Of a stretch of DNA of 64,000 nt, positions 6,963 through 55,583 are shown in pieces. The stretch's first letter is position 1. Each line of letters starts with the position of its first letter. Source of the stretch: Porodaedalea pini. Its lineage: Eukaryota > Basidiomycota > Agaricomycetes > Hymenochaetales > Hymenochaetaceae. The notes below the pieces were generated by a model, which worked only from the letters and a program-made list of their open reading frames with translations, did not search any database and was not told the origin of the DNA. The DNA lies in the NCBI GenBank assembly GCA_002794775.1, contig NBAY01000053.1, forward strand, positions 186,001 through 250,000, given 5' to 3'. A program made the translations under genes and the position numbers.

Positions 6963-8223
6963 TCATTCCTGTGGCTCCGCGGTCACTGTAGCGGAGTAAA
7001 CGACGTTATCATTGCACATAAGAAAAGCAACTCTTGAAAACATACAACCGAAGAACTCAGGTAGCTTCGTCCAGAGTTTGGACCGAATCTCGAGAAGCGT
7101 CTCCTCCGGGGCTCGCGCGAATAAGCATTCCTCACAGAGCAGAAACTCGGTAGCTAGCATGTCTGCATCAGCCTTGCACTTTAATGAGAACAGGGGGCTG
7201 CGAGCGTAATGCACCGCAAGGACCACGTTGCGCATAAGCCGCTCAAAGTTGCTGTAGCAGACAGCCTCTGAGGTGCAGCCCGTTACCACTGTGGGGTCTC
7301 CTATGTCAAACCCGAAGGGACGAAAGTAGTTGGATAGAGTACTGCACTCTCGATGAACATATTGACACATCTTTGTAAGAGCTGTCTCCATTTGTAGGCG
7401 ATCTTCTGCTGTGACCCGACTCCACCGTGCAGTCATAATATTCACACCGTATTGTGAGTAGCCATCCCTGCGCACGGTATCGTAGTCAGCCTGAGGATTG
7501 ATGTTCGATAGGTGGTAAAGCGCGGCTGGAAGGACGCTAGGAATATTATGCCGCCGTGCGATTTGGATAGCGGCGACCGGCTCGGGAAGTATCATATCAA
7601 CTTTGAGACGGTGTTCGGGGGGCTGATCGTGTATGGAGGCGACTTCAATTTCCGCATCCTCAATCATATTCTGGAAATCATCCCACTCAGCGATATTGGA
7701 GGGCCAGTCAGCTTCAATATGTTCAACGATCCGTCTCCGAATTGTATCCATCTGATACTTCGTCGTAAGTTGGCAGGTACGTCCGGATCATATTTTTTGA
7801 GCCTAAATTCCCTGATTGTGATAAGGAAACAGGTTGGGGTTAGAGGCAAAGCACTGTATACTGACCGTACGCACGTTGAGAATCAACTTACATCGGCTTG
7901 TAGAGAATATTCAACAACTTCTCCCACTCTTCCGCGGTATCATGCAAGTACACAAGAGGCAAGGACTCGTACATCTCAGTGGCTTCTGATGTGGCGACTG
8001 AAGGATCTGGGTCCGGAAAACTGAACATATCGGAGAAGACAATCGATTCCCTTGTCAGGACTGACTTGTGCACCTTGAACAGGACGTCATGGTCTTTCAC
8101 TGCCGATGGGACAGACAGTATGATGTTTCCGTCGAACATCCAAAACGGTTCGTGGTGTACTCTGTTTGGCATGGTGAAAATTAGACGCAAAGCTTTGGCA
8201 GAAGTGACATAAAAACGTGACAT
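6963..8223 (-). CDS. BTB/POZ domain protein, frame broken
   Basis: BTB/POZ proteins mediate protein-protein contact, often as cullin-3 adaptors; the target here is unknown. Exon 1 is 8223-7892 and holds the BTB fold start (FWMFDGNIIL, DVLFKVHKSVL, SVVFSDMF-type pattern, LLNILY). A GTAAGT donor at 7891 and CAATCAG acceptor ending at 7812 define an 80-nt intron. Exon 2 starts in one frame (EFRLKKYDPDVPAN) but the rest of the protein (LTTKYQMDTIRRR, EADWP, LPEPVAAIQIA) is in another frame, open to the stop at 6963. The switch is near 7770. Compared with the polypore pattern as I remember it, about seven residues (the LEGTLRLA-type segment) are missing there, so a deletion of about 20-22 nt is likely. 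It is either a pseudogene or an assembly error. Its start lies 35 nt from the 3' end of the GST remnant on the same strand. Confidence 0.7.
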
Positions 8224-11808: not shown

Positions 11809-12247
11809 TGTTAGGTGGAAGTCTGGGAGATGACTCAGACTAGGCAGGCCTGGGCTGACTGTCTGGGATGTGTTATACTTGAGTGGGGACTTGGGACACA
11901 TTGTACTCAGGCTAGGTCATCATAGAGGTAAGAGGATTAATACAATATACTCTACTACAGGAGGGGGACGTGGTCTCACCTAGGTCATTGTAGAGGTAAG
12001 GGGAAAAGCAGAACAGGTGTTCCAATGCGATTCCTCTTCCTTATATACAGCGATCACCTTGTGAGAACCGGTTGCCCAATTGTCTAAGATTATATAAAGG
12101 GAGTGGAATGGAACGAATGAAGGTCATGTGAAAGGGGTGTGGGAAATGATTGAAAAGACAATTAAATGTAATGGAAAGGGGTGATTAAAAATAAAAGAAA
12201 TGGTAAAAAAGGAAAATGAAAGAAAATGAATAGTTCGAGTTCTAACA
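11809..12247 (-). repeat. Element A 3' LTR
   Basis: 439 bp, TGTTAG...CTAACA ends. It is similar to the LTR at 41,500-41,941 with many C/T and G/A differences. Its right edge abuts the polypurine tract (TTACCCCCTCCTC at 12,248-12,260, read on the opposite strand). Confidence 0.93.
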
Positions 12248-14510: not shown

Positions 14511-14515
14511 TTGAT

Positions 14516-14955
14516 GTCAGAACTCGAACTTTCACCCTTTCTTTATTTTCCCCTTTCCCTTTTCCTTTTCTTTTAACCGCTCCTTTCCATTATAATTAAT
14601 CATCTTTTCAATCATTTCCCACACTCCCTTCACATGACCTTCATTCGTTCCATTCTGCTCCCATTATATAATCCTAGACAATGGGGCAACCAGTTCTCAC
14701 GAGGTGATCACTGTATATAAGGAAGAGGAATTGCATCTGAACACCTGTTCTGCTTTTCCTCTTACCTCCATGACGACCTAGGTGAGACCGCGTCCCCCTC
14801 CTGTAGTAGAGTATATTGTATTAATCCTCTTACCTCCGTGACAACCTAGCCTGAGTATAGCGTGTCCCGAGCCCCCGCTTGAGCATAACACATCCCAGAC
14901 GACAGTCAGCTGAGGCTTGCCCAGTCCAAGTCGTCTCCCGGACTCCTGCCTAACA
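14516..14955 (+). repeat. Element B 5' LTR
   Basis: 440 bp, TGTCAG...CTAACA. Contains TATATAAGG at 14,714-14,722 and GTTCTGCTTTT at 14,747-14,757, 33 nt apart. The complementary 11-mer AAAAGCAGAAC follows the LTR at 14,957-14,967 after a single T. Confidence 0.93.
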
Positions 14956-16254
14956 TAAAAGCAGAACCCACCCAGGCTCATCCCCAGTGTACGTCGTCGC
15001 TGTCGACTCGCCTTCACTCAGTCTAGAGGAGCGCTCCCCTCGACGGACTTGATGTGTAAACCCCCTAAACGACAACCCTCAACCCTGCCCAGACGTTTTT
15101 GGATGTTTGCGTATTATGTAAACATCGCAACCAACCTTTTCTGGCCCTGGCTCTCCAAATTAGCCTCTGGTGGAGCACGCACCTGACGTGGACATGGATA
15201 ACCAGACGAGTACAAACTTCGACGGCAATCTCATTTGTGATCTCGCTCAGATCCTACCGCCTCGTCATCAACTTCGCCAACGAACCCGTTCAACGTTGGC
15301 GTAACCCCGGATCGAACGCACAACCGATCCCTGTCCCTCTGCCAACGTCAAGATAGATCTCACCGACGAACAGCAATGGGCCCTTCCTGCATCAGCCCGT
15401 TGGGATCCAGACCAACCAGGCTACGTCGCGACCAATAATAGCGGCGTCACTCACAACATCTGGTGGAGTGAAATCCGGCGCAGCTGGTATTCATCAGACG
15501 AACGAGGAAGGAGAGCAAGGTGGCCCCCAGCCGCTCCATCATTGCCTGCGCCGTCGATGTCTACGGTCAACCTACCACCGACCCCAGGTCCTTACTGCGA
15601 GACTAACAGAGACCCCTCACCGCCGACTCCCCCGGAACCTTCGACACCTGCACCCGAACCCGTGATGTCAGCAGAAGGTTTCAGCCAACAACAGATGGTG
15701 CAGATCGTGGCCATCGTCGCAAATGCCTTCGCCCATCAAGCAAACAACGCCCCGGCACCGGTCGCGGCAGCTAACCCCCCGACCCCAAACATCGACATCG
15801 CCCGGCCACGTGAATTCACTGGCGGCGACGACTATCTAGACTTCAAGCGCGGAGTCCTCCTCTTCATCTCAGCCAACCCGAACCAATACCCCACGTCGGA
15901 AAGCAAAATCTACATTGCGCTCTCCTACTTGAAGGGCGGTAATGCGGCAACGTGGGCGCAGAATTACGTAGAGGAATCAACAACGGCCAGCATCATAATC
16001 TTCACCGACAGCTGGACAAGATTCCAAGAGCGCCTGGATGCCTCGTTCGACGATCCAAACCAGAAGGAAAAGTCGCTGGCGAAATTCCAGACCAAGGTTC
16101 AGAAGGACCTTACCGCCGATGAGTTCTTCCAGGATCTCGACGTTGTCATCACAAGAGCAGGTTTAACGGACGACAGCATCATCTGTGATTGACTGAAGTG
16201 GGCAATGAATATCGAAGTGGTGAGAGGGGTACTACGGTCGATGCCAGTCCCGAC
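14956..16254 (+). pseudogene. Element B leader and gag, 5' part
   Basis: The leader (14,956-15,660) has a conserved frame around YRLVINFA and QRWRNPGSN (15,250-15,356) that breaks into the gag frame near 15,350. Gag proper probably starts at the ATG at 15,665 (MSAEGFSQQQM) and reads PREFTGGDDYLDFK and ALSYLKGGNAATWAQNY. An in-frame TGA at 16,190-16,192 (CGA/CGC in the siblings) interrupts it. The frame then runs on to VPVPT at 16,254, where element C is inserted. It resumes at 22,508. Confidence 0.85.
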
Positions 16255-16667
16255 TGTCAGAACTTGAACTTTCACCTTTTCCTTTATTTTCACTTTTACC
16301 TTTTCCTTTATTATATTCGTCCTTTTCATTATATTTACCCATCTTACACAATCATTCCCACACTACCTTCATTCATTCCATTCCCACTCATTATGTAACA
16401 TTAGGTAATATAGTCTCACGGTCGTCGCTATATAAGGTCTCAGGAATCGCATGAACTCCTTGTTCTGCTTTTCCTCTTACCTCCACGACGACCTAGGTGA
16501 GACTCGTCCCTCTTGTATTAGTCTAGTCTTGTATTAATCCTCTTACCTCCGTGATGACCTAGCCTGAGTAAGCGTGTCCCGAGTCTACGCTCGAGTATAG
16601 CACGTCCCAGACGACAGTCAGCCGAGGCCTGCCCAGTCCGAGTCGTCTCCCGGGCTCCCACCTAACA
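16255..16667 (+). repeat. Element C 5' LTR
   Basis: 413 bp, TGTCAG...CTAACA. Its partner at 22,090-22,502 ends CTAATA, one C-to-T change. T-rich U3 start, TATA box at 16,429, then the U5-like part with CCTAGG motifs. Confidence 0.95.
16429..16472 (+). promoter_or_regulatory. LTR promoter and predicted transcript start (self-primer sequence)
   Basis: TATATAAGG begins at 16,429. GTTCTGCTTTT lies at 16,462-16,472, 33 nt downstream, where RNA polymerase II would be expected to start. This 11-mer is the exact complement of the sequence just inside the 5' LTR (16,669-16,679). The start site is inferred from spacing only. Confidence 0.65.
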
Positions 16668-16668
16668 T

Positions 16669-16679
16669 AAAAGCAGAAC
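16669..16679 (+). promoter_or_regulatory. Predicted primer-binding site, self-priming type
   Basis: AAAAGCAGAAC sits one base after the 5' LTR, where a retrotransposon primer-binding site belongs. It does not look like the usual complement of an initiator tRNA-Met 3' end (TGGTAGC...). It is complementary over 11 of 11 bases to the predicted transcript 5' end. The same pair is found in elements A, B, D and I. Confidence 0.7.
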
Positions 16680-17389
16680 CCCACCCAGGCTCATCCCCAG
16701 CGTACGTCGTCGCTGTCGACTCGCCTTCACCCAGTCTAGAGGAGCACTCCCCTCGACGGATTGGACGTGTAAACCCCCTAAACGACAACCCTCAACCCTG
16801 CCCGGACATTTCCAGACGTTCGTGTATTAAGTAATCACTCCAACTAACCTTTCCCGACCCTGGCTCTCCGGATTAGCCTCTGGTGGAGCACGCACCTGAC
16901 GTGGACGTGGGTAACCAGACGAGTACAAACTTCGACGACAATCTCGTTTGTGATCTCACTCGGATCCTACCGCCTCGTCATCAACTTCGCTGACGAACCC
17001 ACTCAACGTTGGCGTAACCCCGGTACCAACACACACCCAATCCCTGTTCCTCCTCCATCGTCAACATAGACCTCAACGAGGAACAACGTCGTGCTCTCCC
17101 GTCTCGTTCCTGGTACAACGAGGAACGCCGCTCCTGGTTCACGGTTACTCAAACAGGCGTTGAATACATTATCTGGTGGCGTCCAGAGAAAGGACTCTGG
17201 TATTCGACGCTTGAAGGAGGAAGAAGATTGAAGTGGGCTCCTGCGCCGATAGATCAGACAACCCCGATTTCGCCATCGCTTTCGACGTCAACCACTCTCC
17301 CACCGAACCCAGGACCATATAGAGAAGCGCGACGAGATTCATCACCCCCGACCCCCCCTGAGCGACAAACGGACACGCCTAGAACAACA
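16680..17389 (+). other. Element C leader with conserved extra reading frames
   Basis: Leader between primer-binding site and gag ATG. The gag frame is open from about 17,000 and reads EEQRRALPSRSWYNEERRSW and IIWWRPEKGLWYS, which is conserved in the sibling copies. Upstream, another frame reads YRLVINFADEPTQRWRNPG (about 16,960-17,020). No ATG in the gag frame precedes 17,390. Either gag has a spliced or non-ATG N-terminal extension, or these are structured RNA. See findings. Confidence 0.5.
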
Positions 17390-18463
17390 ATGTCGACGGG
17401 AAGCTTCAGCACACAACAGTTGGAGCAAATCGCGGTGATCGTAGCAGGTGCCTTCGCCCATCAAGCCGCAAACGCCCCAGCGGGCCCTAGTACCGCTACC
17501 GTACCAAACATCAACGTCGCCCGACCACGTGAATTCACTGGTGGCGACGATTACCTCGACTTCAGACGTGAAGTCCTCCTTTTCGTATCCGCAAATCCAA
17601 GTCGATACCCTACGTCAGAGAGTAAGATCTATGTAGCTCTCTCCTACCTGAAGGGTGGTAATGCGGCAACGTGGGCACAGAACTATGTCGAGGAGTCGAC
17701 AACGTCGGGAATCGTCACCTTAACCGACAGCTGGGAAAGATTCCAGGAACGACTCGACGCCTCGTTCGACGACCCGAATCGCAAGGAGAAAGCGCTGAAG
17801 GATTTCCAAGATAAGGTTCAGAAGGACCTAACCGCGGACGAGTTCTTCCAGAAGTTCGACGTGATCATTAAGCGCGCCGAGCTGAAAGACGACAGCGTCA
17901 TCTGCGATCGCCTCAAGCGAGCGATGAACATCGAGGTGGTCCGTGGAGTGCTAAGGTCGACGCCAGTCCCAACGAAATACGAGGATTGGAAGAACAAGGC
18001 GATTGAAATAGACCGCGGCGAACAGCAGATTCGCGCTATCCAACGAGGACGTGCCTTTCTTCCCCCTCCTCGCCTACCACAACAAGCACCCCCAGCTCGC
18101 CGTCAGGTGGCGGCCCCTCACGTCGATAGACGTGACGCGACCGGCGTCACCTTCGGAGGCGCTGGTCAGCCGATGGACGTCTCGATGAATGAGGCGCAAC
18201 GACGACGTGCATGCTGGATCTGTGGCGGGTTGGGCCACTTCAAGGACAAGTGCCCGCAAGCGAAACCGATCATCCAGTGCATGCTGGAACTGATGGCGCC
18301 AGGCGAACGTTGTGTCCTCGCCGACGAGCTCGGAGCAATGAAGGAGTCGGCCTTCGAGGAAGTCGTAGACACTCGGAGGTCGACTGTGGAGGACTATGTG
18401 GAGGAAGAAGACAATGACGAAGAGGTCGTCGACTCGCAGGGTTTTGCGAGTGGTCAGGCGTAG
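17390..18463 (+). CDS. gag: Element C Gag (capsid/nucleocapsid)
   Basis: 357-residue Gag from the first ATG in the open frame (MSTGSFSTQQLEQI). It forms the retrotransposon particle and binds the RNA. The capsid-like part holds PREFTGGDDYLDFRREVLLF, ALSYLKGGNAATWAQNY, FQERLDASFDDPN and RAMNIEVVRGVL. A CCHC zinc knuckle CWICGGLGHFKDKC is at about 18,212-18,253. An acidic C-terminal tail (VEDYVEEEDNDEEVVD) precedes the TAG at 18,461. The frame is also open upstream to about 17,000. The pol frame overlaps its last 46 nt in the -1 register. Confidence 0.9.
   Translation: MSTGSFSTQQLEQIAVIVAGAFAHQAANAPAGPSTATVPNINVARPREFTGGDDYLDFRREVLLFVSANPSRYPTSESKIYVALSYLKGGNAATWAQNYVEESTTSGIVTLTDSWERFQERLDASFDDPNRKEKALKDFQDKVQKDLTADEFFQKFDVIIKRAELKDDSVICDRLKRAMNIEVVRGVLRSTPVPTKYEDWKNKAIEIDRGEQQIRAIQRGRAFLPPPRLPQQAPPARRQVAAPHVDRRDATGVTFGGAGQPMDVSMNEAQRRRACWICGGLGHFKDKCPQAKPIIQCMLELMAPGERCVLADELGAMKESAFEEVVDTRRSTVEDYVEEEDNDEEVVDSQGFASGQA
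18439..18445 (+). promoter_or_regulatory. Candidate -1 ribosomal frameshift site GGGTTTT
   Basis: In gag frame the codons are CAG GGT TTT, so the heptamer reads G GGT TTT. This fits the X XXY YYZ slippery rule exactly. It lies inside the 46-nt window (18,418-18,463) where gag and the -1 pol frame are both open. B and I keep GGGTTTT, while the older A and D have GGATTTT. Downstream RNA structure was not assessed. Confidence 0.55.
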
Positions 18464-21400
18464 CCATCGGGGCGACTGACCGAGAGGAACAAGGGACTTC
18501 GACTCTGGACTCGTTAAAATATAACCAACCGTCTGTACAATACATAAATGCGAACGACGTTGATGGTTTTCCCGAGTACAAAGTCCCCACCGATGTGAAG
18601 GAAGGTGAAGAGTATGAGCAGCTGTTCATGAGAGGAACTGGCGGACGCCAGCTGGACCTTCTCCTGAACGTCGAACACAGTGTGGAAGGTGAAGTGAGGG
18701 AGGTGGACGCACACGCGCTCGTGGATTCGGGATGTATGGGGTCGTGCATTGACGTGAGATTCGTCGAACGGTATGGGCTAGAGACGAAGCGTTATATCCG
18801 GCCCCTTGCGGTACTCAATGCCGACGGCACACACAACGAAGCCGGGTTGATCGAGGAGTATGTCGACGTTGAACTTACGATTGATCACCATAAGGAACAG
18901 ATCGTCCTGGCGGTAACCTCACTGGCATCGTCTAACATCTTCCTGGGGTACGACTGGCTTCGACGACACAACCCAGAGGTCGACTGGAAGACGGGTACAC
19001 TTGACTTTACGCGCTGCCTGAGCGAATGTGTGATCGAAAAGAAGCAGGTGGAGAACCTAAACAAGGTGAAGGAGGAGGTGGAGCAGATGAGGAGGGTGAG
19101 TGAGATGCGAATGGACAAGGCGTCCTGGCCCGCATACCTCAACGACTACACCGACGTCTTCAGCGAAAAAGGTTTTGAGAAGCTGCCGGAGCACCGACCC
19201 TGGGACCATGTCATCGACTTGAAGCCCGACTTCAAACCGAGCGACTGTAAGATCTACCCGCTCACGCCAACTGAGCAGCAGTCACTCAAGGACTTCCTTG
19301 ATGAAAATCTGAAGTCGGGTCGCATTCGACGGTCGATATCGCCCATGGCGTCGCCCTTCTTCTTCATAAAGAAGGCCGACAAATCGCTACGCCCGATCCA
19401 GGATTACCGTAAGCTCAATGACGGTACGATCAAGAATAAGTATCCCCTCCCTCTCATTGACGAACTCGTCGACAAGGTCAAGAAAGCGAAGTACATCACT
19501 AAGCTTGACCTTCGCTGGGGGTACTACAATATCCGGATCCGCGAGGGTGACGAATGGAAGGCAGCTTTTCGCACGAACATGGGCCTCTTCGAACCAACGG
19601 TCATGTTTTTTGGCCTTTGCAACGTGCCGGCCACGTTCCAGGCCTTTGTCAACCACATCTTTAAGGACCTAATCTACGCGAACTTGATCATCGTATACCT
19701 CGACGATATTCTGATCCTCTCGGAAACCATTGAGGAGCATATCGACACGTCGAGGCGTGTACTCCAGATCCTCCGAGAAAATGGCCTGTACCTGAAGCCG
19801 GAGAAGTGCGAGTTTGACGCCAAGGTCGTCAAATACCTCGGCCACGTCATCGGCAATGGTGAGATCAGGGCTGACCCAGCAAAGACGGAGGCGATTGCGA
19901 ACTGGCCAGTCCCACGGAACCTCAAGGAGCTGCAACAGTTCCTCGGTATGGGAAACTGGCTAAGACGGTTTATTAAGGACTACAGCAAGGTGGTCCGACC
20001 GTTGACGTCGTTAATGGGCAAGAAGGACTGGGTATGGGAGACCGAACAGCAGGAAGCGTTCGAGGAGCTGAGACGATGTCTCTGCTCACCTCCAGTCCTA
20101 GCCATCGCCAATGACGAGGGCCCTTTCCGCGTAGAAGCGGACTCGTTGAACTTTGCGCTCGGTGGTGTGTTGTTACAGAAGCAGGAAGGGAAGTGGAGGG
20201 TGATCGCCTACAGGTCAGAGGCACTGGAACCAGCGGAACGAAACTACGAGATCTATGACAAAGAGATGCTCGCGATCGTTTCGGCGCTCAAGGAGTGGCG
20301 GCAATACCTCCTTGGCGCTCGCCACAAGATTGAAATCTGGTCCGACCACGCCAACCTCACCTACTTCAGATCGGCGCAGAAGCTGAGCTATCGCCAAGCT
20401 CGCTGGCGGACCGAACTTGAAGAATTCGACTTCCACCTCGAACACAAGTCAGGCAAGATGATGGGCAAGGCCGACCTGCTATCGCGCATGGCGGGCTATG
20501 ATCAGGGCAAGGATGACAACGATGGGGTCGTGTTCATCAAGGATAAGTGGTTGAACCGTGGAGTGGTGCGGACCTCGCGCGACGAGGTGGTAGAACGAGT
20601 GGGTGAAGCGCAGAGGGCGCAGGACGAGTCGGAGAGGCCGACGGGAATGACAGAAGTTGACGGATTGTGGCGCATAAAAGACAAAGTATACGTGCCATCG
20701 TCAATGAAGGAGGCTGTATTACGGGAATGTCACGACTCGGTACTGGCTGGACACCCAGGAGCGTCGAAAACGGTGGAACTCGTCCGATGAGACTTCTGGT
20801 GGACGTCGATGTTCTCCGACGTCAGAGCATATGTCCAAGGGTGTGATCGCTGCCAGCGAACAAAGGCTCTGAGGGCATCGAGGTCGAGGCCACTTCACCC
20901 GAACACGGTCCCGGAGGGCCCATGGGAAATTGTCACGGTCGACCTCATCGGAGAACTCCCGGACTCCAAGGGACACAACGCAATCTGCGTTTTCGTCGAC
21001 AGGTTCTTGAAACAGATGCACGCGATCCCGACGACGACAAGGTTGTCGGCGGAAGGCATGGCTCAACTGTACCGCGACCATGTCTTCCGCCTCCACGGCT
21101 TGCCGAAGAAGATCATCCATGACCAAGGCACGCAGTTTGACGCATCGATGATGAAGGAGCTGTACAAACTCCTGCACATCGAAGGCAACCCATCAACAGC
21201 ATACCATCCACAGACGGACGGTCAAACGGAACGCGTTAACCAAGAGCTCGAACAGTACCTTTGACTCTTCGTTAACCATCGGCAATCGGACTGGAAGGAC
21301 TGGCTCCCCCTCGCAGAGTTCGCATACAACAACCGTGAACACTCAGCAACGAAGATGTCCCCCTTCTACGCGAACACAGGACGTCACCCCTTGAGCTTCG

Positions 21401-22089
21401 ACACAACGCGAACCTCATCTGCTAACATGTCAGCGGAAGAATTCGCAAAGCACATCAAGGAGACTCATCACGTTGCTAAGGACAACCTAGTCAAGGCAGC
21501 AGAGGACATGAAGCGCTACCATGACCGGACGGCAGGAGCTTCAGTGGAGTACAAGGCTGGAGACAAGGTCTTCCTTGACGGGCGAAACATCAGTACGGAC
21601 TCGCCGACAAAGAAACTCGCAGACAAATGGTATGGCCCCTTTGACGTCGTCGACAAAATAGGAGCGAGCGCGTACAAACTCAAACTCCCGAAGCGATGGA
21701 AAAAGGTCCACCCTGTCTTCAACGAAGCCCTATTGAAACCCGCCGTCGAACCGTCCTTTGGAAGCCAAAAGCAACCGCCGCCGCCGCCGCCAGACATCGT
21801 CGAGAACGAGGAGGAGTACGAACTTGAGGAAGTCTTAGACTCACGTCTGCACCGAGGGAAACTACAGTACCTTGTCAAGTGGGTCGGCTACAATGAACCT
21901 ACTTGGCAGCCTGAGACGGACTTCGGCGAGAACGCGAAGGAGGCGATCGCTGAGTTCTACCTCAAACATCCCGGGGCACCTCGGAAACTCGACATCCCTC
22001 GTCAACGACTCCGTCCGCTCTTCGTCGACACCGAGCCTGACGACCGCGATCATGGTTGGTCGGGACGCCCAACCTTGAAGGGGGGGTAA
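18446..22089 (+). CDS. pol: Element C Pol (protease-RT-RNase H-integrase-chromodomain), two TGA stops
   Basis: One frame carries the whole polyprotein. Order: aspartic protease (HALVDSG at 18,712-18,732), reverse transcriptase (YLDD at 19,696-19,707; FFFIKKADKSLRPIQDYRKLN upstream), RNase H (FRVEADS, YDKEMLAIVSALKEW), integrase zinc finger (H..H..CDRCQRT, about 20,730-20,850), integrase core (VTVDLIGELPD, IIHDQGTQFD, YHPQTDGQTERVNQE) and a chromodomain (LQYLVKWVGYNEPTW, about 21,865). Only two stops interrupt it, at 20,788-20,790 and 21,262-21,264. Both are TGA where siblings have CGA (Arg). There are no frameshifts. The stop at 22,087-22,089 abuts the 3' LTR, and the polypurine tract codes for the last residues (LKGG). 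Pol lies in -1 frame to gag. Confidence 0.9.
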
Positions 22090-22502
22090 TGTCAGAACTT
22101 GAACTTTCACCTTTTCCTTTATTTTCACTTTTACCTTTTCCTTTATTATATTCGTCCTTTTCATTATATTTACCCATCTTACACAATCATTCCCACACTA
22201 CCTTCATTCATTCCATTCCCACTCATTATGTAACATTAGGTAATATAGTCTCATGGTCGTCGCTATATAAGGTCTCAGGAATCGCATGAACTCCTTGTTC
22301 TGCTTTTCCTCTTACCTCCGTGACGACCTAGGTGAGACTCGTCCCTCTTGTATTAGTCTAGTCTTGTATTAATCCTCTTACCTCCGCGACGACCTAGCCT
22401 GAGTAAGTGTGTCCCGAGTCTACGCTCGAGTATAGCACGTCCCAGACGACAGTCAGCTGAGGCCTGCCCAGTCCGAGTCATCTCCCGGGCTCCCGCCTAA
22501 TA
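22090..22502 (+). repeat. Element C 3' LTR
   Basis: 413 bp, partner of 16,255-16,667. Differences seen (for example CACGG/CATGG, CAGCCGAGG/CAGCTGAGG, GTCGTC/GTCATC, CTAACA/CTAATA) are transitions at CpG positions. Confidence 0.95.
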
Positions 22503-22507
22503 CCGAC

Positions 22508-23000
22508 AACGTATGAAGACTGGAAAAAGAAAGCGATCAAAATTGACCAGGGCGAGCAACAAATTCGCACCATACAACGAGGCCGCGCCTTCCCACCCCC
22601 TCCACGCCCACAGCAGCAGCATGGACCCCCAGCTCATCACCAGGTGGCTGCCCCCCATGTTGACAAACACGATGCGACAGGTGTAACGTTTGGAGGAGCT
22701 GGCCAGCCGATGGACGTCTCCATGAACGAGGCGCAACGTCGACGCGCGTGCTGGATATGTGGCCAGCTCGGTCACTTCAAGGATGCGTGCCCACAAGGGA
22801 AGACGATTGTGCAGCGTATGCTGCAGATGATGGCACCCGGCGAACGTCGCCTCCTCACCGACGAACTAGGGGTGATGAAGGAATCGGCATTTGAGGAAGT
22901 CGTAGACACTCGAAAGTCGACTGTGGAGGACTATGTGGAGGAAGAAGACAATGACGAAGAGGTCGTCGACTCGCAGGGTTTTGCAAGTGGTCAGGCGTAG
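22508..23000 (+). pseudogene. Element B gag, 3' part
   Basis: Continuation of B's gag after the C insertion: TYEDWKKKAIKIDQGEQQIR, then a Pro/Gln-rich linker, then the CCHC knuckle CWICGQLGHFKDAC (about 22,749-22,790) and the acidic tail EEEDNDEEVVDSQGFASGQA ending at TAG 22,998-23,000. GGGTTTT is retained at the gag-pol junction. This half shows no stops. Confidence 0.88.
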
Positions 23001-26000
23001 TCATCGGGGCGACTGACCAAGAGGAACAAGGGACTTCGAATCCGGATTCGCTAAAATATAACCAATCATCTGTACAATACGTAGATGCAAACGACGTCAA
23101 TGGTTTTTCCAATTATGAAGTCCCCACCGGTGTGAATAAAGAGGAGGAGTACGAGCAGCTGTTCATGAGAGGAACTGGCAGATGCCAGCTGGACCTTCTC
23201 CTGAACGTCGGACACAGCGTAGCAGGTAAGACGAGAGAGGTGGATGCGCATGCCCTCGTAGATTCGGGATGCACAGGATCGTGCATTGACGTGAGGTTCG
23301 TCGAGCGCTACAGGTTGGAGACCAAACGATACATTTGGCCCCTCGCAGTGCTCAATGCTGATGGCACACACAATGAAGCTGGGTTGATCGAAGAATACGT
23401 CAACGTCGAGCTTATGATTGGGCACCACAGGGAGAGGATTGTCCTTGTGGTGACATCGCTGGCGTCGTCAAACATCTTCCTTGGTTACAATTGGCTTCGA
23501 CGTCACAACCCAGAGGTAGACTGGAAGGTGGGTTTGATTGAATTCACCCATTGCCCGGAGGAGTGCACAATCGAGAAGGAGGACGTAAAGGAGATGAGGA
23601 GGGTGAGAGAGGTGCGAATGGACAAAGCGTCCTGGCCCGCATACCTCAATGACTACGCCGATGTATTCTCGGAGAAGGGGTTCGAGAAGTTACCTGAACA
23701 CCGACCATGGGACCACATCATCGATCTGAAACCCGACTTCAAGCCCAGTGACTGCAAGATCTACCCACTCACGCCAACAGAGCAGCAGTCACTCAAGGAC
23801 TTCCTAGATGAGAACTTGAAGTCTGGTCGCATCCGAAGGTCTATATCGCCTATGGCGTCGCCTTTCTTCTTCATCAAGAAGGCCGACAAATCGCTACACC
23901 TGATCCAGGATTACCGTAAGCTCAATGACAGTACGATCAAGAACAAGTATCCCCTCCCTCTCATCGACGAACTTGTCAACAAGGTCAAGAAAGCGAAGTA
24001 CATCACTAAGCTTGACCTTCGCTGGGGATACCACAACGTCCGGATCCAGGAAGGTGATGAGTGGAAGGCAGCCTTTCGCACGAATATGGGCCTCTTTGAA
24101 CTGACGGTAATGTTCTTCGGTCTTTGCAATGCACCGGCGACGTTCCAAGCTTTCGTCAACCACATCTTAAGGGACTGATCTACGACAACCTGATCATCGT
24201 ATACCTTGACGATATACTGATTCTCTCACAAACTCTTGAGGAACATATCAAGACCTCGAGACACGTCCTTCAGATCCTGCGAGAGAACGGCTTATACCTG
24301 AAACTGGAGAAGTGCGAGTTCGATGCCAAAGTGGTGAAGTACCTCGGCCACATCGTCGGCAATGGCGAAATCAAAGCGGACCCGGCAAAGACGGAAGCAA
24401 TCGCAGACTGGCCCGTCCCACGAAACATCAAACAGCTGCAACAATTCCTCGGTATGGGCAACTGGCTGTGATAGTTCATCAAGGACTACAGCAAGGTAGT
24501 CCATCCGCTAACGTCACTGACGGGCAAGAAGGACTGGGTATGGGAGACTGAACAGCAGGAGGCGTTCGAGGAGTTGAGACAACGTCTCTGCTCACCTCCA
24601 GTCCTGGCCATCGTGAATGATGAGGGCCCTTTCCGTGTTGAGGCGGACTCATCAAACTTCGCTCTTGGAGGAGTGTTGTTGCAAAAGCAGGAAGGCAAGT
24701 GGAGGGTAGTTGCCTACAGGTCGGAAGCACTCCTACCGGTGGAACGAAACTACGAGATCTACGACAAGGAGATGCTCGCAATTGTTTCGGCACTCAAGGA
24801 GTGGAGGCAATACCTCCTCGGTGCCCGTCATCCCATCGAGATCTGGTCCGATCACGCTAACCTTACCTACTTCAGGTCGGTGCAAAAGCTAAGCTATCGA
24901 CAAGCTCGCTGGCGGACAGAGCTCGAGGAATTCGACTTCCACCTCGAACACAAGTCAGGGAAGACGATGGGCAAGGCGGACTTACTGTCGCGCAAGGCGG
25001 GCTATGACGAGGGCAAGGATGACAACAACGGCGTTGTGTTCATCAAGGACAAGTGGCTGAATCGTGGGGTGGTGAGGACGTCACGTGATGAGGTGTTGGA
25101 CAGAGTGGGTGAAGCGCAGAGGGCGCAACACGAGTCGGAGAGGCTGACGGGCATGACAGAGGTCGACGGGTTGTGGCGTATGAAAGGCAAGGTATACATG
25201 CTGTCGTCAATGAAGGAGGCCATATTGTGGGAATGTCACGACTCGGTTCTGGTGGGTCATCCGGGAGCGTCAAAGACAGTAGAGCTCATCCGTTGTGATT
25301 TCTGGTGGGCGTCGATGTTCTCCGACGTCCGAGCGTATGTCCGAGGATGCGACCGTTGTCAACGGACGAAAGCCTTAAGAACATCGAGGTCGAGGCCGCT
25401 TCATCCAAATGCAGTCCCTGAAGGTCCCTGGGAAATCGTCACGGTTGACCTAATCGGAGAACTCCCGGACTCTAAGGGACACAACGCGATCTGCGTCTTT
25501 GTGGACAGGTTCTCGAAGCAGATGCATGTGATCCCGACAACGATGAAATTGTCAGTGGAAGGCATGGCTCAGTTATACCGCAACCACATCTTCCATCTCC
25601 ATGGCCTACCAAAGAAGATCATTCACAACTGAGGCACGCAGTTTGATGCGTCGATGATGAAGGAGCTGTACAATCTCCTGCACATCAAAGGCAACCCGTC
25701 AACCGCATACCACCCACAAATGGATGGTCAGACGGAACGTGTCAACCAAGAGCTCAAACAGTATCTCCGACTCTTCGTTGACCACCGGCAATCAGACTGG
25801 AAAGACTGGCTCCCCCTCGCAGAGTTTGCTTACAATAACCGCGAACACTCGGCGACGAAAATGTCACCCTTCTATGTGAACACTGGACGTCACCCTAAGA
25901 GCTTCGACACCGTACGAACCTCCTCTGCCAACATGTCGGCAGAAGAATTCGTGAAGCACATCAAGGAGACTCATTGTGTAGCAAAGGACAATCTGGTCAA

Positions 26001-26595
26001 GGCGGCAGAGGATATGAAGCGCTACCATGACCGGACAGCAGGGGCTTCGGTGGAGTACAAGGCTGGAGACAAGATTTTCCTCGATGGGTGAAACATCAGC
26101 ACAGACTCACCAACAAAGAAGCTAGCGGACAAGTGGTATGGTCCCTTCGAGATCGTCGACAAGGTGGGAGCGAGTGCGTACAAGCTCAAGCTCCCAAAGT
26201 GATGGAAAAAGATCCACCTGGTCTTCAATGAGGCCCTGCTGAAACCTGCAGTTGAACCGTCTTTCGAAAGTCAGAAACAACAGCTGCCGCTGCCACCTGA
26301 CATCGTCAATAACGAGGAAGAGTACGAGATCGAGGAAGTCATAGACTCATGTCTGCACCGAGGGAAACTACAATACCTCGTCAAGTGAGTTGGCTACAAT
26401 GAACCGACATGGCAGCCAGAGATGGACTTTGGCGAGAATGCAAAGGAGGCGATCGCTGAATTCTATCGAAGACACCCCGGTGCCCCTCGAAAACTCGAAA
26501 TTCCTCGCCAACGACTTCGCCCACGCTTCATCGACACTGAGCCAGACGACTGCGATCTTGGTTGGTCGGGACGCCCAACCTTGAAGGGGGGGTAA
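23001..26595 (+). pseudogene. Element B pol, several stops and one frameshift
   Basis: Protease (HALVDSGCTGSC, about 23,247) and RT are open to 24,178. A one-base deletion in the HIFKGLI-coding stretch near 24,165 shifts the frame. RT YLDD, RNase H and integrase continue from about 24,180. Stops: TGA-TAG pair at about 24,469-24,474 (siblings read RR), TGA at 25,630-25,632, TGA at 26,089-26,091, another near 26,201, and TGA in the chromodomain near 26,386. All but one fit CGA/CGG changed by C-to-T or G-to-A. The integrase stop at 25,630 is shared with element I. Confidence 0.88.
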
Positions 26596-27036
26596 TGTCA
26601 GAACTTGAACTTTCACCCTTTCTTTATTTTCCCCTTTCCCTTTTCCTTTTCTTTTAACCGCTCCTTTCCATTATAATTAATCATCTTTTCAATCATTTCC
26701 CACACTCCCTTCACATGACCTTCATTCGTTCCATTCTGCTCCCATTATATAATCCTAGACAATGGGGCAACCAGTTCTCACAAGGTGATCACTGTATATA
26801 AGGAAGAGGAATTGCATCTGAACACCTGTTCTGCTTTTCCTCTTACCTCCGTGATGACCTAGGTGAGACCACGTCCCCCTCCTGTAGTAGAGTATATTGT
26901 ATTAATCCTCTTACCTCTGTGACGACCTAGCCTGAGTATAGCATGTCCCAAGCCCCCACTCGAGCATAACACGTCCCAGACAACAGTCAGCCAAGGCTTG
27001 CCCAGTCCGAGTCGTCTCCTGGACTCCCGCCTAACA
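26596..27036 (+). repeat. Element B 3' LTR
   Basis: 441 bp, partner of 14,516-14,955. Preceded by the polypurine tract with seven G and the pol stop TAA. Followed by CTTGA, the duplicated target. Confidence 0.94.
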
Positions 27037-28950: not shown

Positions 28951-29319
28951 TGTCAGGACTTGAACCTTTCCTTTCCTTTATTTTCCTTTTATCATTCCCA
29001 CACTTCCTCCACATGACCTTCATTCATTCCATTCCGTTCGTTTATGTAACTTTAGATAATATAGTCTCATGGTCGCCGCTATATAAGGTCTCAGGAATCG
29101 CATGAACTCCCTGTTCTGCTTTTCCTCTTACCTCCGTGACGACCTAGGTGAGACTCGTTCCCCTTGTATTAGTTTAGACTTGTATTAATCCTCTTACCTC
29201 CGCAATGACCTAGCCTGAGTATAGCATGCCCCGAGTCCCCGCTCGAGTACAGCACGTCCCAGATGACAGTCAGCCGAGGCCTGCCTAGTCTGAGTCGTCT
29301 CCCGGACTCCCACCTAACA
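28951..29319 (+). repeat. Element D 5' LTR
   Basis: 369 bp. GCTATATAAGG lies near 29,079 and GTTCTGCTTTT at 29,113-29,123. The complementary AAAAGCAGAAC follows at 29,321-29,331. Confidence 0.94.
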
Positions 29320-30029
29320 TAAAAGCAGAACCCCACCTGGGCTCATCCCCAGCATACGTCGTCACTGTCGACTCGCCTTCACTCAGTCTAGAGGAGCGCT
29401 CCCCTCAACGGACTTGAAGTGTAAATCCCCTAAACGACAACCCTCAACCCTGCCCAGACGTTTTCGGATGTTCGTGTATTACGTAAACCTCGCAACCGAC
29501 TTTTCCCGACCCTGGCTCTCTGCATCTCCCTTTGGTGGAGGAGCCACTTAACTTGGACATGGGTGATGTTATGTGTACAGTCATCGACGTCGTTGTCGAT
29601 TGTTATCACTGTCACCTCCTTCCGTCTCATTATCAATTTCGCTGACGAACCCATTCAACGTTGGCGTAACCCCAGATCGAATGTGCAACCGATCCCTGTC
29701 CCTCCACCATCGTCAAGATAGATCTCACCGACAAACAGCAATGGGCCCTCCCTGCATCAGCCCGTTGGGATCCAGACCAACCAAGTTACGTCGCGACCAA
29801 CAACAGCGGCGTTACATACAACATCTGGTGGAGTGATATCTGGCGTAGCTGGTATTCGACGAACAAAGAAGGAAGGAGAGCTAGGTGGCCCCCAGCCATC
29901 CCGTCGTCACCTGCACCATCAACGTCCACTGTCAACTTACCACTGACTCCAGGACCCTACTGCGAGACTTGGAGAGATCTTTCACCGCCAACCCCTCCTG
30001 AACCTTCGACGCCTACGCCCAAACCTGCA

Positions 30030-34708: not shown

Positions 34709-35077
34709 TGTCAGGACTCGAACCTTTCCTTTCCTTTATTTTCCTTTTATCATTCCCACACTTCCTCCACATGACCTTCATTCATTCCATTCCATTCGTT
34801 TATGTAACTTTAGATAATATAGTCTCATGGTTGCCGCTATATAAGGTCTCAGGAATCGCATGAACTCCCTGTTCTGCTTTTCCTCTTACCTCTGCAACGA
34901 CCTAGGTGAGACTTGTTCCCCTTGTATTAGTTTAGACTTGTACTAATCCTCTTACCTCCGCGACGACCTAGCCTGAGTACAGCGTGCCCTGAGTCCCCGC
35001 TCGAGTACAGCATGTCCCAGACAACAGTCAGTCGAGGCCTGCCCAGTCCAAGTCCTCTCCTGGACTCCTGCCTAACA
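34709..35077 (+). repeat. Element D 3' LTR
   Basis: 369 bp, partner of 28,951-29,319. It follows the purine tract and the TAA of pol directly. Confidence 0.94.
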
Positions 35078-40189: not shown

Positions 40190-41499
40190 GTGGGCGTGGT
40201 GGGGGAGGAAATGCACAACCTTGTTGGATGGCCCAGATCTGTTGTTCACCCTGGTCGATCTCAATGGCCTTCTTTTTCCAGTCATTGTACGTCGTTGGGA
40301 CCAGCATCGACCTCAACACTCTGTGGACCACCTTGATGTTCATCGCACGCTTCAGGCGGTCACAAATGGTGGCGTTGTCTGTCAATCCTGCCATCATGAT
40401 GATCATGTCAAGCTTTTGGAAGAACTTGTCAGCAGAGAGGTCCTTCTGGACTTGGGTTTGGAAGAGTGCCAAGGCTTTCTCTTTCTGATTTGGATCATTG
40501 AACAAGGCATCCAGCCATTCCTGGAACCTGGTCCAGCTGTCTGTGAAACTCACAATGCCATTTGTCGTGAATTCCTCGATGTAGTTCTGCACCCACATTG
40601 ATGCATTGCCACCCTTGAGGTATGAGAGGGTGAGGTAGATCTTGCTCGACAATGAGGGGTACTTCGTGGGGTTTGCTGAGACAAAGAGAGTGACTTCACG
40701 TCTGAAGTTGAGGTAATTGTTGCCACCAGCGAATTCACGTGGTCAGGCAACATCAATATTGGGGTTCAGGGCAGCAGGGGCATGTGCCACTTGGTGAGTG
40801 AAGGCACCCGCTATGATGGCTGCAATTTGTTCTGGCTGTTGCTGGCTGAAACCTCCCATCAACATTGCTGGTTTGGGTGTAGGTGTTGAGAGTTTGGGGG
40901 GGGGGGGGGGGGGTTGGTGGCGACAAGTCTCTGGTTCTACATGCTCTGTCATCTGTTGAGTACCATGCCTTCCTGATGTCACTCCACCAGATATTGTGGG
41001 TGACACCTTGATTGTCAGTTGCAACGTACAAGGCTCGTTCGGGGTCAAATCATGACAAAGAAGGGAGAGCCCGCTGTTGTTCCTCTGTGATATCTATCTT
41101 GGCTAAGATGGTGGGGGAACAGGGAGTGGTTGATCGTTCAATCTGGGGTTACACTAATGTTGAATGGGTTCATCAGCGAAGTTGATGACAAGGCAGTAGG
41201 AGCCAAGTGAGATTACAAATGATATTGTTGTTGAAACCTGTACTCATCTGGTTGCCCACGTCCATGTCAGGTGTGTGCTCCACCAAAGGCTAATGCAGAG
41301 CACCAGGGTTGGAAGATGTCGGTTTGAAGGTTTATGTAATACACAAACATCCAAAAACGTCTGGGCAGGGTTGAGGGTTGTCATTTAGGGGTTTTTACAC
41401 ATCAAGTCCATCGAGGAGAATGCTCCTCTAGACTGAGTGGAGGCGAGTTGACAGTGATGACGTACATTGAAGATGAGCCTAGGTGGGGTTCTGCTTTTA
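40190..41499 (-). pseudogene. Element A gag 5' part and leader
   Basis: Minus strand. Gag reads MLMGGFSQQQPEQI (about 40,865), PNIDVA then TGA (CGA in siblings) before PREF, LSYLKGGNASMWVQNY, FQEWLDALFNDPNQKEK, RAMNIKVVHRVLRSM and QGEQQIWAIQQGCAF (to 40,190). An 18-base G run at 40,896-40,913 (poly-C on the coding strand, proline codons) sits in the N-terminal linker. The leader is 41,050-41,487, with the primer-binding 11-mer at 41,488-41,498 next to the LTR. Confidence 0.87.
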
Positions 41500-41941
41500 T
41501 GTTAGGCGGGAGTCTGGGAGATGACTCGGACTAGGCAGGCCTCAGCTGACTGTTGTCTGGGATGTGTTATACTCGAGCGGGGACTCGGGACACATTGTAC
41601 TCAGGCTAGGTTGTCACAGAGGTAAGAGGATTAATACAATATATTCTACTATAGGAGGGGGATGCGGTCTCACCTAGGTCATTGTGGAGGTAAGAGGAAA
41701 AGCAGAACAGGTGTTCTGACGCGATTCCTCTTCCTTATATACAGCGATCACCTTGTGAGAACCGGTTGCCCAATTGTCTAAGATTACATAAAGGGAGTGG
41801 AATGGAACAAATGAAGGTCATGTGAAAGGGGTGTGGGAAATGATTGAAAAGATGATTAAATGTAATGGAAAGGGGCGATTAAAAATTAAAGAAATGGTAA
41901 AAAAGGAAAATGAAAGAAAATGAATAGTTTGAGTTCTAACA
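41500..41941 (-). repeat. Element A 5' LTR
   Basis: 442 bp, TGTTAG...CTAACA. The 11-mer pair is conserved: AAAAGCAGAAC at 41,698-41,708 within the LTR (plus-strand view) and GTTCTGCTTTT at 41,488-41,498 just outside it. Confidence 0.93.
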
Positions 41942-44377: not shown

Positions 44378-44640
44378 TGCAGACTCTTTTGTAGACCGAA
44401 TGGTTGACTCAAGGGTGAATCTATGTTCTTCCCAAGGGAGACTGTGGTGACTTGATAGTTGAGGAAGGACAACCAAATAGAAACGCAGTGATTGAACATT
44501 CAAAACGGTAGCTCCATTGGTCCAGAGGCTTTGCCAAAGGGCTCGAACCTGTTAGAATCGAACCCCCAACACAGACTCTGTGACTTGAATGATTGAAACC
44601 AGCTGAAGTCCCGGCAAAGCTGGGACTTCGCTTCAAACAC

Positions 44641-44890
44641 AGTGCTTAGATCCATCCCGGCTTCGCCAGGACTTGTTTTTTAAATGCAATGCTTAGATCC
44701 AGCCTGGCTTTGCCAGGACTTGTTTTTTTAAACACAATGCTTAGATCCATCCTAGCTTTGCCAGGACTTGTTTTTTTAAACACAATGCTTAGATCTATCC
44801 TGGCTTTGCCAGGACTTGTTTTTTTAAATGCAATGCTAAGATCCATCCTGGCTTCACCAGGACTTGGGTTTAAACACAGTGCTCATATCT
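44641..44890. repeat. 48-bp minisatellite, about five copies
   Basis: Tandem repeat with core ATCCTGGCTTTGCCAGGACTTG and a run of T, period 48 bp. The inverted partner at about 57,715-58,065 has about seven copies. The period is 16 codons, so every frame shows a spurious repetitive peptide. Not a gene. Confidence 0.88.
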
Positions 44891-44921
44891 ATTCTGGCTT
44901 TATCTAAGTTCTACAGACAAT

Positions 44922-45026
44922 ATACAGGTGGGTGTAAGTGATGGCTGAGTCATGTGCAAGCTTTATGCAGTAACTCCCAGCCAAACTGGTGCACATGACT
45001 TAGCCTTCACTTATACCCACCTGTAT
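44922..45026. repeat. Foldback (MITE-like) unit inside P
   Basis: About 37-bp imperfect inverted arms starting ATACAGGTGGGT, separated by about 30 bp. It is also present in the inverted P copy near 57,568-57,672. It could be a tiny nested TA-type MITE or a structural part of P. Confidence 0.65.
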
Positions 45027-45887
45027 TATCTTAGTCTGTCTGGAAGAAACTTGATTTTTATTGTAAAATTCTAATTACACTAAAGCCTCACTAAATCCAA
45101 TATTGGTTGTCACATTATGTCAGTTGCCCATGTGTAAGACAGGTGTAGTAAGCTTATTACTAATATGTATAATCTTTTCTTTTGTTCCTGCACATTTCTG
45201 CTTAACTTGCAACTTCTACAGTTATAGACAGCCATATTGTAGATCTCTCTTCCTCAATGTTTTCTAGAATGATGCTCAGTACTGTAGGATGAGGATCATG
45301 TAGGAATTCAATGCTTAAACAAAGATTTCCCTTGCTGACTTTTTCTCTGGAGGCTCTGACTTACTCACTCAGAGCACTGCTTTCAGCCTTACATTTTACT
45401 TCACTGCAATCTTCAGTCTGGCTGCAAGTTATGCTCCTATGTTCTCAGCTTTATGTATCACCTTATTTTTCCTTAGAACATCCATTGGAGTGAGTCCTAA
45501 TATAATATAAAGTGTAAGTCTGCCAGAGCATTCTTACCATAGCCAACATGACACCAACTGTCTGGACATTGTGTCATGACTTGGAGTACTGAGTCTACAC
45601 CACAATACTGAGTCTACACCATGACCATGCTGAGTCTGAGTCTGAGTGCCAAGTCTCATGATCATGCCAAGTCTGAGCCTGAAGATCAAGTCTGAGCCCA
45701 AAACTTGGTGGCAGCATAGCCTCAGGACCTTCGGAGCAGGGCATGTTACATTCTATTTATATCCTTTTCATATTCCCTTCACTCCCCAACCCATCCAAAG
45801 CTAATGCAAACTTGTCTGATGCTTATACACACTTGCACTGAGTCAAGTGATCCTTCAGCATGCAAATGCTGAGTTACATATTCCAAG

Positions 45888-49177: not shown

Positions 49178-49667
49178 TGTTAGGCGGGAGTCCGGGAGAC
49201 AGCTCGGACTGGGCAGGCCTCGGCTGACTGTCATCTGGGACGTGCTATACTCGAGCGTAGACTCGGGACACGCTTACTCAGGCTAGGTCGTCGCGGAGGT
49301 AAGAGGATTAATACAAGTCTAAACTAATACAAGGGGGACGAGTCTCACCTAGGTCGTCGCGGAGGTAAGAGGATTAATACAAGTCTAAACTAATACAAGG
49401 GGGACGAGTCTCACCTAGGTCGTCGTGGAGGTAAGAGGAAAAGCAGAACAAGGAGTTCATGCGATTCCTGAGACCTTATATAGCGACGACCGTGAGATTA
49501 TATTACCTAACATTACATAACGAGCGGGAATGGAACAAATGAAGGTCATGTGAAGGGAGTGTGGGAAGTGATTGGAAAGATGATTAAAGATAATAAGGAG
49601 GAGCGGTTAAAAGAAAAGGAAAAGGGAAAAGGGAAATAAAGAAAGAGTGAAAGTTTGAGTTCTGACA
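49178..49667 (-). repeat. Element I 3' LTR
   Basis: 490 bp. Longer than the C LTR because of a tandem duplication near 49,285-49,420 (GAGGATTAATACAAGTC units). Preceded on the coding strand by a polypurine tract with six G instead of seven. Confidence 0.94.
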
Positions 49668-54372: not shown

Positions 54373-55093
54373 TGTCGGTGCGGGCGTGCGGGACAGGTGT
54401 TTGGGAGGTGTCGGCGGTGATGAGTCTCTACGGGGCGTACAATAACCTCCTGGTTCGCTTGGGAGGATGACTGACGATGTTGAGACCATCGGTGATAATG
54501 GCGCCCGTTGAGTTCTAGGCGCCCACTGAACTCGTTGAGCTTGTTCGTTAGTCGAGTACCAAGCGTGTCTGAGGTCGCTCCACCAGAGGTCGTGGGTGAC
54601 GCTTTTGCTGTCGGTTACGACGTACGAAGCGTGGTCAGGGTCAAACTGCGACGATGAGGGTAGCGCCCGCTGTTGTTCCTCTGTGAGATCTATTTTGACT
54701 AGACCGGAGGGGGAACAGGGATGGGTTGCGAGTTGGATACAGGGTTATGCCAACGTTGAGTGGGTTCGTCGGCGAGGTTGATGACAAGGCGGTAGGAGCC
54801 GAGCAAGATCACGAACGAGATTGTCGTCGAGGCTTGTACTCGTCTGGTCACCCACGTCCACGTCAGGTGCGTGCTCCACCAGAGGCTAATCCGGAGAGCC
54901 AGGGTCGGGAAAGGTCGGTTAGAGTGATTACGTAATACACGAACATCCGAAAACGTCCGGGCAGGGTTGAGGGTTGTCATTTGGGGGTTTACACGTCAGG
55001 TCCTTCGAGGGGAGCGCTCCTCTAGACCGAGTGAAGGCGAGTCAACAGCGACGACGTACGCTGGGGATGAGCCTGGGTGCGGTTCTGCTTTTA

Positions 55094-55583
55094 TGTTAGG
55101 CGGGAGTCCGGGAGACAGCTCGGACTGGGCAGGCCTCGGCTGACCGTCATCTGGGATGTGCTATACTCGAGCGTAGACTCGGGACACGCTTACTCAGGCT
55201 AGGTCGTCGCGGAGGTAAGAGGATTAATACAAGTCTAAACTAACACAAGGGGGACGAGTCTCACCTAGGTCGTCGCGGAGGTAAGAGGATTAATACAAGT
55301 CTAAACTAATACAAGGGGGACGAGTCTCACCTAGGTCATCGTGGAGGTAAGAGGAAAAGCAGAACAAGGAGTTCATGCGATTCCTGAGACCTTATATAGC
55401 GACGACCGTGAGATTATATTACCTAACATTACATAACGAGCGGGAATGGAACAAATGAAGGTCATGTGAAGGGAGTGTGGGAAGTGATTGGAAAGATGAT
55501 TAAAGATAATAAGGAGGAGCGGTTAAAAGAAAAGGAAAAGGGAAAAGGGAAATAAAGAAAGAGTGAAAGTTCGAGTTCTGACA
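55094..55583 (-). repeat. Element I 5' LTR
   Basis: 490 bp, partner of 49,178-49,667, with the same internal duplication. AAAAGCAGAAC at 55,355-55,365 inside and its complement at 55,082-55,092 just outside. Leader and gag follow at descending coordinates (55,081-54,373), with the YRLVINLADEPTQRW leader frame at about 54,800. Confidence 0.94.

Follow-up and report, generated by a model that had tools for sequence, protein, structure and literature searches.

In the basidiomycete Porodaedalea pini, Ty3/gypsy elements that carry a chromodomain very probably prime reverse transcription themselves, as does Tf1, the retrotransposon of Schizosaccharomyces pombe; this mode of priming is known but uncommon. 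Five such elements, designated A, B, C, D and I, lie in the window, i.e., the whole stretch of 64,000 nucleotides that was analyzed (assembly GCA_002794775.1, contig NBAY01000053.1, positions 186,001 to 250,000), and all belong to one abundant family (family 1), while two further families of the same genome (families 2 and 3) display the same arrangement built from other letters. At the level of sequence, the support comes from the position of an 11-nucleotide complement, its exact length, its complementarity to the primer-binding site (PBS), compensated change across the three families and the chromovirus type of the encoded proteins; in addition, the PBSs have no counterpart in the tRNA set examined.

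The mechanism that we infer from these features would run as follows. Transcription would start about 33 nt past the TATA box of the LTR, so that the RNA begins with GUUCUGCUUUU; it is this TATA spacing that leads us to regard the 11-mer as the first 11 nt of the mRNA. These 11 nt would then fold back onto the PBS just past the LTR, the element's own RNase H would cut after base 11, and the freed 3' end, adjoining U5, would serve as primer and be extended into minus-strand DNA.

The 11-mer pair in the window

The 11-mer or its complement occurs 15 times in the window, as five PBSs and ten complements with no stray copy, the complements numbering one per LTR of the five elements; shuffled sequence gives a mean of 1.5 sites even with one mismatch allowed. 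The sites, together with the anatomy of element C, are the following.

Element C
16255..16667, plus strand: 5' LTR (TG...CA), of which 411 bases are 97.8% identical to 22090-22500
16429..16435, plus strand: TATA box TATATAA, with the self-primer 33 nt on
16462..16472, plus strand: putative self-primer GTTCTGCTTTT, predicted first 11 nt of the transcript and exact complement of the PBS
16669..16679, plus strand: PBS AAAAGCAGAAC, one base past the 5' LTR
17018..18463, plus strand: gag frame (domain matches Retrotrans_gag and Ty3_capsid)
18418..20790, plus strand: pol frame with protease, reverse transcriptase, RNase H and the start of the integrase zinc-binding domain
20791..21264, plus strand: integrase core piece, with stop codons at its bounds
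21265..22089, plus strand: integrase C-terminal piece, SH3_Tf2-1 and chromodomain
22090..22502, plus strand: 3' LTR; its 11-mer lies at 22297-22307 (plus strand)

Element B
14747..14757, plus strand: putative self-primer
14957..14967, plus strand: PBS
26828..26838, plus strand: 11-mer in the 3' LTR

Element D
29113..29123, plus strand: putative self-primer
29321..29331, plus strand: PBS
34871..34881, plus strand: 11-mer in the 3' LTR

Element A
41698..41708, minus strand: putative self-primer
41488..41498, minus strand: PBS
12004..12014, minus strand: 11-mer in the 3' LTR

Element I
55355..55365, minus strand: putative self-primer
55082..55092, minus strand: PBS
49439..49449, minus strand: 11-mer in the 3' LTR

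The coordinates that the first-pass annotation had given for C, B and D proved exact, A and I do lie on the minus strand as it stated, all 15 sites are accounted for, and its remark that the pair persists in element A holds for both minus-strand sites, which are letter-perfect. It had also placed the complement about 33 nt downstream of the LTR TATA box; in C and B the distance from the first T of TATATAA to the start of the complement is 33 nt. One detail needs correction: the PBS does lie one base from the LTR boundary, but beyond the LTR end and not inside the 5' LTR, the junction in C reading ...CCTAACA (end of the LTR), then T, then the PBS. In C and B the pairing covers exactly 11 nt and is bounded by a mismatch at both flanking positions. 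The distance from primer to PBS is 207-210 in four of the window elements and 273 in element I, owing to extra sequence in the R region of the latter. This extra stretch (within window 55082-55365) resembles a repeat of neighbouring sequence, and the other family 1 elements of the window have a shorter R.

Element C and its proteins

The boundaries of C are supported by a 5-bp target duplication, CCGAC, found on both sides. The element (16255-22502) sits between the two LTRs of B (window 14515-27036), which is itself flanked by CTTGA on both sides, and C appears to have been inserted in B. The pol region of C is interrupted by stop codons; the best match of its reverse transcriptase region among solved structures is Ty3, and the nearest named proteins come from Sanghuangporus vaninii (64%), S. 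baumii (63%) and Phellinidium (58%), a similarity that would by itself probably place the host in Hymenochaetales or among related basidiomycetes. The Ty3/gypsy order of pol domains (protease, reverse transcriptase, RNase H, integrase) is found in pieces in family 1, in one frame in family 2 and in two pieces in family 3. A chromodomain (PF00385) was detected after the integrase in families 1 and 2, while the piece of family 3 that was searched for domains extended only as far as SH3_Tf2-1. Judged by these domain matches, the window elements are chromoviruses, i.e., chromodomain-bearing Ty3/gypsy elements.

Family 1 across the genome

Counted over all 53.3 Mb of the genome, the 11-mer has 1403 + 1415 occurrences and the reversed control 19 + 17, and exact primer/PBS pairs at the right spacing number 709 versus none for the control; the count refers to spacers of 185-214, and element I, like any other copy whose spacer is longer, falls outside it. 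Our alignment of family 1 leaders comprised the 14 elements whose 5' LTR could be placed. Five loci lacking an LTR pair (L008, L009, L015, L017, L018) and one having just a 577-base repeat pair (L010) were left out, as were L001-L003 and L006; for L020, an extra repeat pair returned by the LTR search (8 nt only) was dropped as non-LTR and the other LTR pair was aligned. Among these 14 leaders the primer is invariant at 11/11 positions and the PBS at 10/11, the eleventh position being an alignment gap in B, whose own PBS is exact.

At the one position tested (primer C4-to-T) we found no compensated pair, and the primer change with unchanged PBS occurs in two pairs, versus 709 unchanged pairs. 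Likewise, the consensus fold of 13 family 1 leaders gives no covariation support (covariation term +0.32), two-sided change being kept at three of 57 pairs, none of them in the primer helix. The one-position test and the consensus fold neither support nor exclude compensation within family 1.

Two further families with 11-mers of their own

Family 2 (L004 and L005) has 55% identity to the protein used to find it, and family 3 is represented by L007, with no second member among the 70 scored matches. Both reproduce the geometry of family 1 with unrelated letters. In both, the PBS is found two bases past the LTR and reads AGGTCGAAACT in family 2 and TTAACAATTCT in family 3. The complement, AGTTTCGACCT in family 2 and AGAATTGTTAA in family 3, begins 35 nt downstream of the start of a TATA-like sequence, TATATAAG and TATTTAAG, respectively. 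Taking C, B, L005 and L007 together, the predicted primer starts 33-35 nt past the TATA-like box and the PBS 1-2 nt past the LTR, and in each of the three families the pairing is exactly 11 nt, ending at both sides.

The three families differ at 10 of the 11 base pairs and every difference is two-sided: all 33 primer/PBS pairs are Watson-Crick, whereas the primer of one family matches the PBS of another at 3-4 of 11 pairs. We regard this compensated change between families, which amounts to a natural covariation, as strong sequence evidence for the pairing, with n = 3 families only. The covariation of the two 11-mers envisaged by the first-pass annotation is accordingly present between the three families, but none was found inside family 1, at the one position tested or in the consensus fold. 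Seen as a natural mutation experiment, in which the number of pairs stays at exactly 11 although 10 of the 11 positions have changed, the comparison suggests that the length of 11 matters more than the sequence. Families 2 and 3 appear to self-prime with 11-letter keys of their own.

Within family 2, we sampled 18 stretches from the 69 scored matches besides L007, which are presumed to belong to this family. Both 11-mers are exact in 13 of the 14 readable copies, although identity to L005 is only 90-95% over the stretches compared; L098 carries one C-to-T change in the primer with an exact PBS. The remaining four comprise L090, L095 and L102, which gave no alignment to the family 2 leader (the stretch missed it or the copy has diverged), and L107, whose stretch ends within the PBS. 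By itself this conservation proves little, since the leaders of both family 1 and family 2 hold conserved blocks besides the two 11-mers. One such block, L005:876-917, corresponds to roughly the first 42 nt of the predicted family 2 transcript, is invariant in 14 of 14 aligned copies (chosen for both 11-mers) and can fold as a local hairpin containing the putative self-primer. For a fourth chromovirus relic (L023, contig C89), no LTR pair was found, flanks included.

Search for a tRNA primer

As tRNA set we used the 59 RNA-family matches in the genome, the stretches of which yielded 58 tRNAs with ARAGORN; this number is a lower bound. The best tRNA matches of the three 11-mers are 7, 7 and 6 nt, lengths equalled by 128, 150 and 287 of 300 shuffled 11-mers, respectively, and none of the three PBSs begins with TGG. 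The sequence checks proposed by the first-pass annotation gave results that favour its reading or are neutral; among the 58 predicted tRNAs, with a best match of 7 nt (128 of 300 shuffles), none explains the site of family 1.

In a second test, the first 18 nt after the LTR were compared with the LTR and with the tRNAs, both with permutations; C, B and D were the window elements covered. An 11-nt LTR complement is present in all six chromovirus elements (C, B, D, L011, L005, L007), and permuted 18-mers reach it in 0-1 of 1000 cases per element (0/1000 for C, B and D). The tRNA matches of the same 18-mers are 7-9 nt long, and the 9 nt of family 3 is equalled by 28 of 200 permutations. With matches at or near chance among the 58 predicted tRNAs, priming of the three chromovirus families by a tRNA or half-tRNA was rejected.

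Half-tRNA priming is known from the copia element of Drosophila, and Copia elements of the P. pini genome served as control. Just past the 5' LTR, all four (L078-L081) match the anticodon half of tRNA-Met by 14-15 nt (0/200 permutations), and their self-complements of 4-7 nt are those expected by chance (108 to 998 of 1000 permutations). The LTR ends of these elements were placed by hand and may be a few bases off; the tRNA match is independent of the placement. Since the control matches tRNA-Met, the procedure recognizes tRNA priming when it is present, and half-tRNA priming by tRNA-Met is indicated, on sequence grounds, for the Copia elements of this genome; the two superfamilies contrast sharply in this respect. 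At locus L027 (G000 C1:917300-917810), four tRNA-Met genes are predicted as a cluster spanning about 500 bases, and their anticodon half matches the Copia PBS.

Folding of the leaders

In Tf1 the leader adopts a three-duplex "pretzel", in which two extra duplexes between PBS-adjacent and LTR sequences are described as needed (PMC10085805). We searched for such duplexes against composition-preserving shuffles, scoring the best of several candidates. In family 2 (L005), TGTGTCAGC pairs with GCTGACACA directly before the PBS over 9 bp (2/300 shuffles) and TGACTGAG with CTCAGTCA after the PBS over 8 bp (13/300); in family 3 (L007) there are 12 bp with two GU pairs upstream of the PBS (2/300) and 9 bp downstream (15/300). 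These predictions, made on one element each, suggest that families 2 and 3 could form the side duplexes of the pretzel. In the six family 1 members the upstream duplex is at chance throughout, and the downstream duplex reaches 10 bp in L021 (3/300) and 8 bp in A and D (16 and 29 of 300), the other three being at chance, so that no consistent pretzel signal was found against shuffles in the six members. The folding energy of the whole leader points the same way, with z values of -4.49 for family 2, -4.14 for family 3 and -0.13 for family 1 (element C), the last value meaning that this leader is no more stable than its shuffled versions. The predicted folds of families 1 and 3 have the leader closed by the paired 11-mer; in the minimum-energy fold of family 2 the 11-mer lies in a local hairpin, off the PBS, which speaks against a straightforward form of the model, although the program is unable to draw crossed pairing.

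Weighing other explanations

Most LTR elements are primed by a tRNA, and it may be asked whether a whole tRNA or a half, as for copia, primes here too. The tRNA set is a lower bound and half-tRNA priming is indicated for the Copia elements of this very genome; yet the PBSs lack a TGG start, their matches of 6-7 nt (11-mers) and 7-9 nt (18-mers) stay at or near chance, and three different tRNA fragments would be needed for the three PBSs, each of which also happens to match the LTR by 11 nt. We consider a tRNA primer highly improbable. Chance, or an accident in one ancestral family that was then copied many times, is harder still to uphold: the copies of family 1 are indeed mutually non-independent, but families 2 and 3, with unrelated 11-mers in the same geometry, contradict it, as do the permutations (0-1 of 1000 per element tested), and we give this explanation next to no weight.

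The explanation that comes closest to competing, though itself very unlikely, assigns the 11-nt pairing a structural or packaging role, for instance in dimerisation or translation control, and the priming itself to some other molecule. Closure of the leader by the paired 11-mer in the predicted folds of families 1 and 3 would suit such a role. Against it, the complement is located where a PBS belongs, 1-2 nt beyond the LTR, and there no other primer candidate was seen, and in all three families the pairing has the length described for Tf1 (PMC7175516). Self-priming is the reading that we retain.

Relation to known self-priming elements

Self-priming was worked out in fission yeast. The analogy with Tf1 and sushi-group elements drawn by the first-pass annotation agrees with what the literature describes (PMC10085805, PMC7175516, PMC4600332, PMC6317226). 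For Tf1, the first 11 bases of the RNA are reported as complementary to the PBS, with a cut between bases 11 and 12 (PMC7175516), and self-priming is said to be common within the Tf1/sushi group (PMC10085805). The elements of P. pini share with Tf1 the 11-nt complement between primer and PBS and, in families 1 and 2, the chromodomain, and pretzel duplexes are predicted as possible in families 2 and 3; they differ from it by three other 11-mers, a basidiomycete host and the unconvincing side duplexes of family 1, and are known here from sequence.

For Tj1 of S. japonicus and for Tosmo1-3/Tcry1, self-priming was deduced from complementarity between the PBS and a segment at the 5' end of the RNA (PMC4600332, PMC10085805). 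Tj1 has been shown to transpose. Going by these descriptions, the present elements are alike in the predicted presence of such a segment and differ in host. A likeness by description also extends to the Tcn1 clade of Cryptococcus, mosses and club-mosses, likewise chromoviruses and mostly predicted to self-prime (PMC6317226, PMC7175516), although for one member, SM-Tcn1, the description mentions neither a tRNA PBS nor signs of self-priming (PMC2864245). The half-tRNA priming of Copia differs, with its tRNA-Met anticodon half and absent self-complement, and plant copia lineages are described as using one half of tRNA-Met (PMC6317226). By the sequence features tested, self-priming of the known Tf1/sushi type is well supported. 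In the open-access literature searched, no title on self-priming in Hymenochaetales was found, which is weak evidence of absence. What the P. pini genome brings together is three families with a self-primer signature and different keys, beside Copia elements that look tRNA-primed.

How primer and PBS might change together

It is tempting to speculate, although we hold the idea to be rather doubtful, that the self-primer is copied into the plus strand, so that the PBS of each new copy would be re-templated from the self-primer at every round. If this were true, the primer and PBS of a family could change in lockstep, and the presence in one genome of three families with unrelated, perfectly matched 11-mers would be explained.

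One locus may be considered in this respect. L016 (G000 C71:39000-48900) has LTRs at 939-1627 and 6997-7686 around one internal region, and in both the unit of U3 and 11-mer is doubled, giving the order U3-11mer-U3-11mer-R-U5, the end of the first 11-mer being joined exactly to the LTR start. Within one LTR the two units are 17 substitutions apart, within its partner 24, and corresponding units across the two LTRs show 6 and 3 differences; because units differ more within an LTR than across LTRs, the doubling is older than the split of the LTRs. In exact form the junction is confined to these two places in the genome. Under the lockstep scenario it could have arisen by a template switch to an RNA that had been cut after base 11, although a single case is no proof. 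At this locus elements are arrayed with LTRs in common, and identity between the two LTRs is just 92% in R-U5, so recombination was probably also involved.

Relatives outside the genome and other features of the window

A scan of viral contigs returned no relatives with the protein as query and one remote match with the alignment. In bacterial assemblies, seven contigs (L083-L089; Neobacillus, Shewanella and others) carry chromovirus-like pol genes, which are probably eukaryotic contamination of contigs filed under bacteria; an LTR pair was found at none of the eight viral and bacterial loci. Apart from the elements described above, the window contains 837-nt inverted repeats (44676-45512 and 57082-57918) that are 99% complementary and 11.6 kb apart, and that overlap 48-bp tandem repeats (44628-44915 and 57680-58111).
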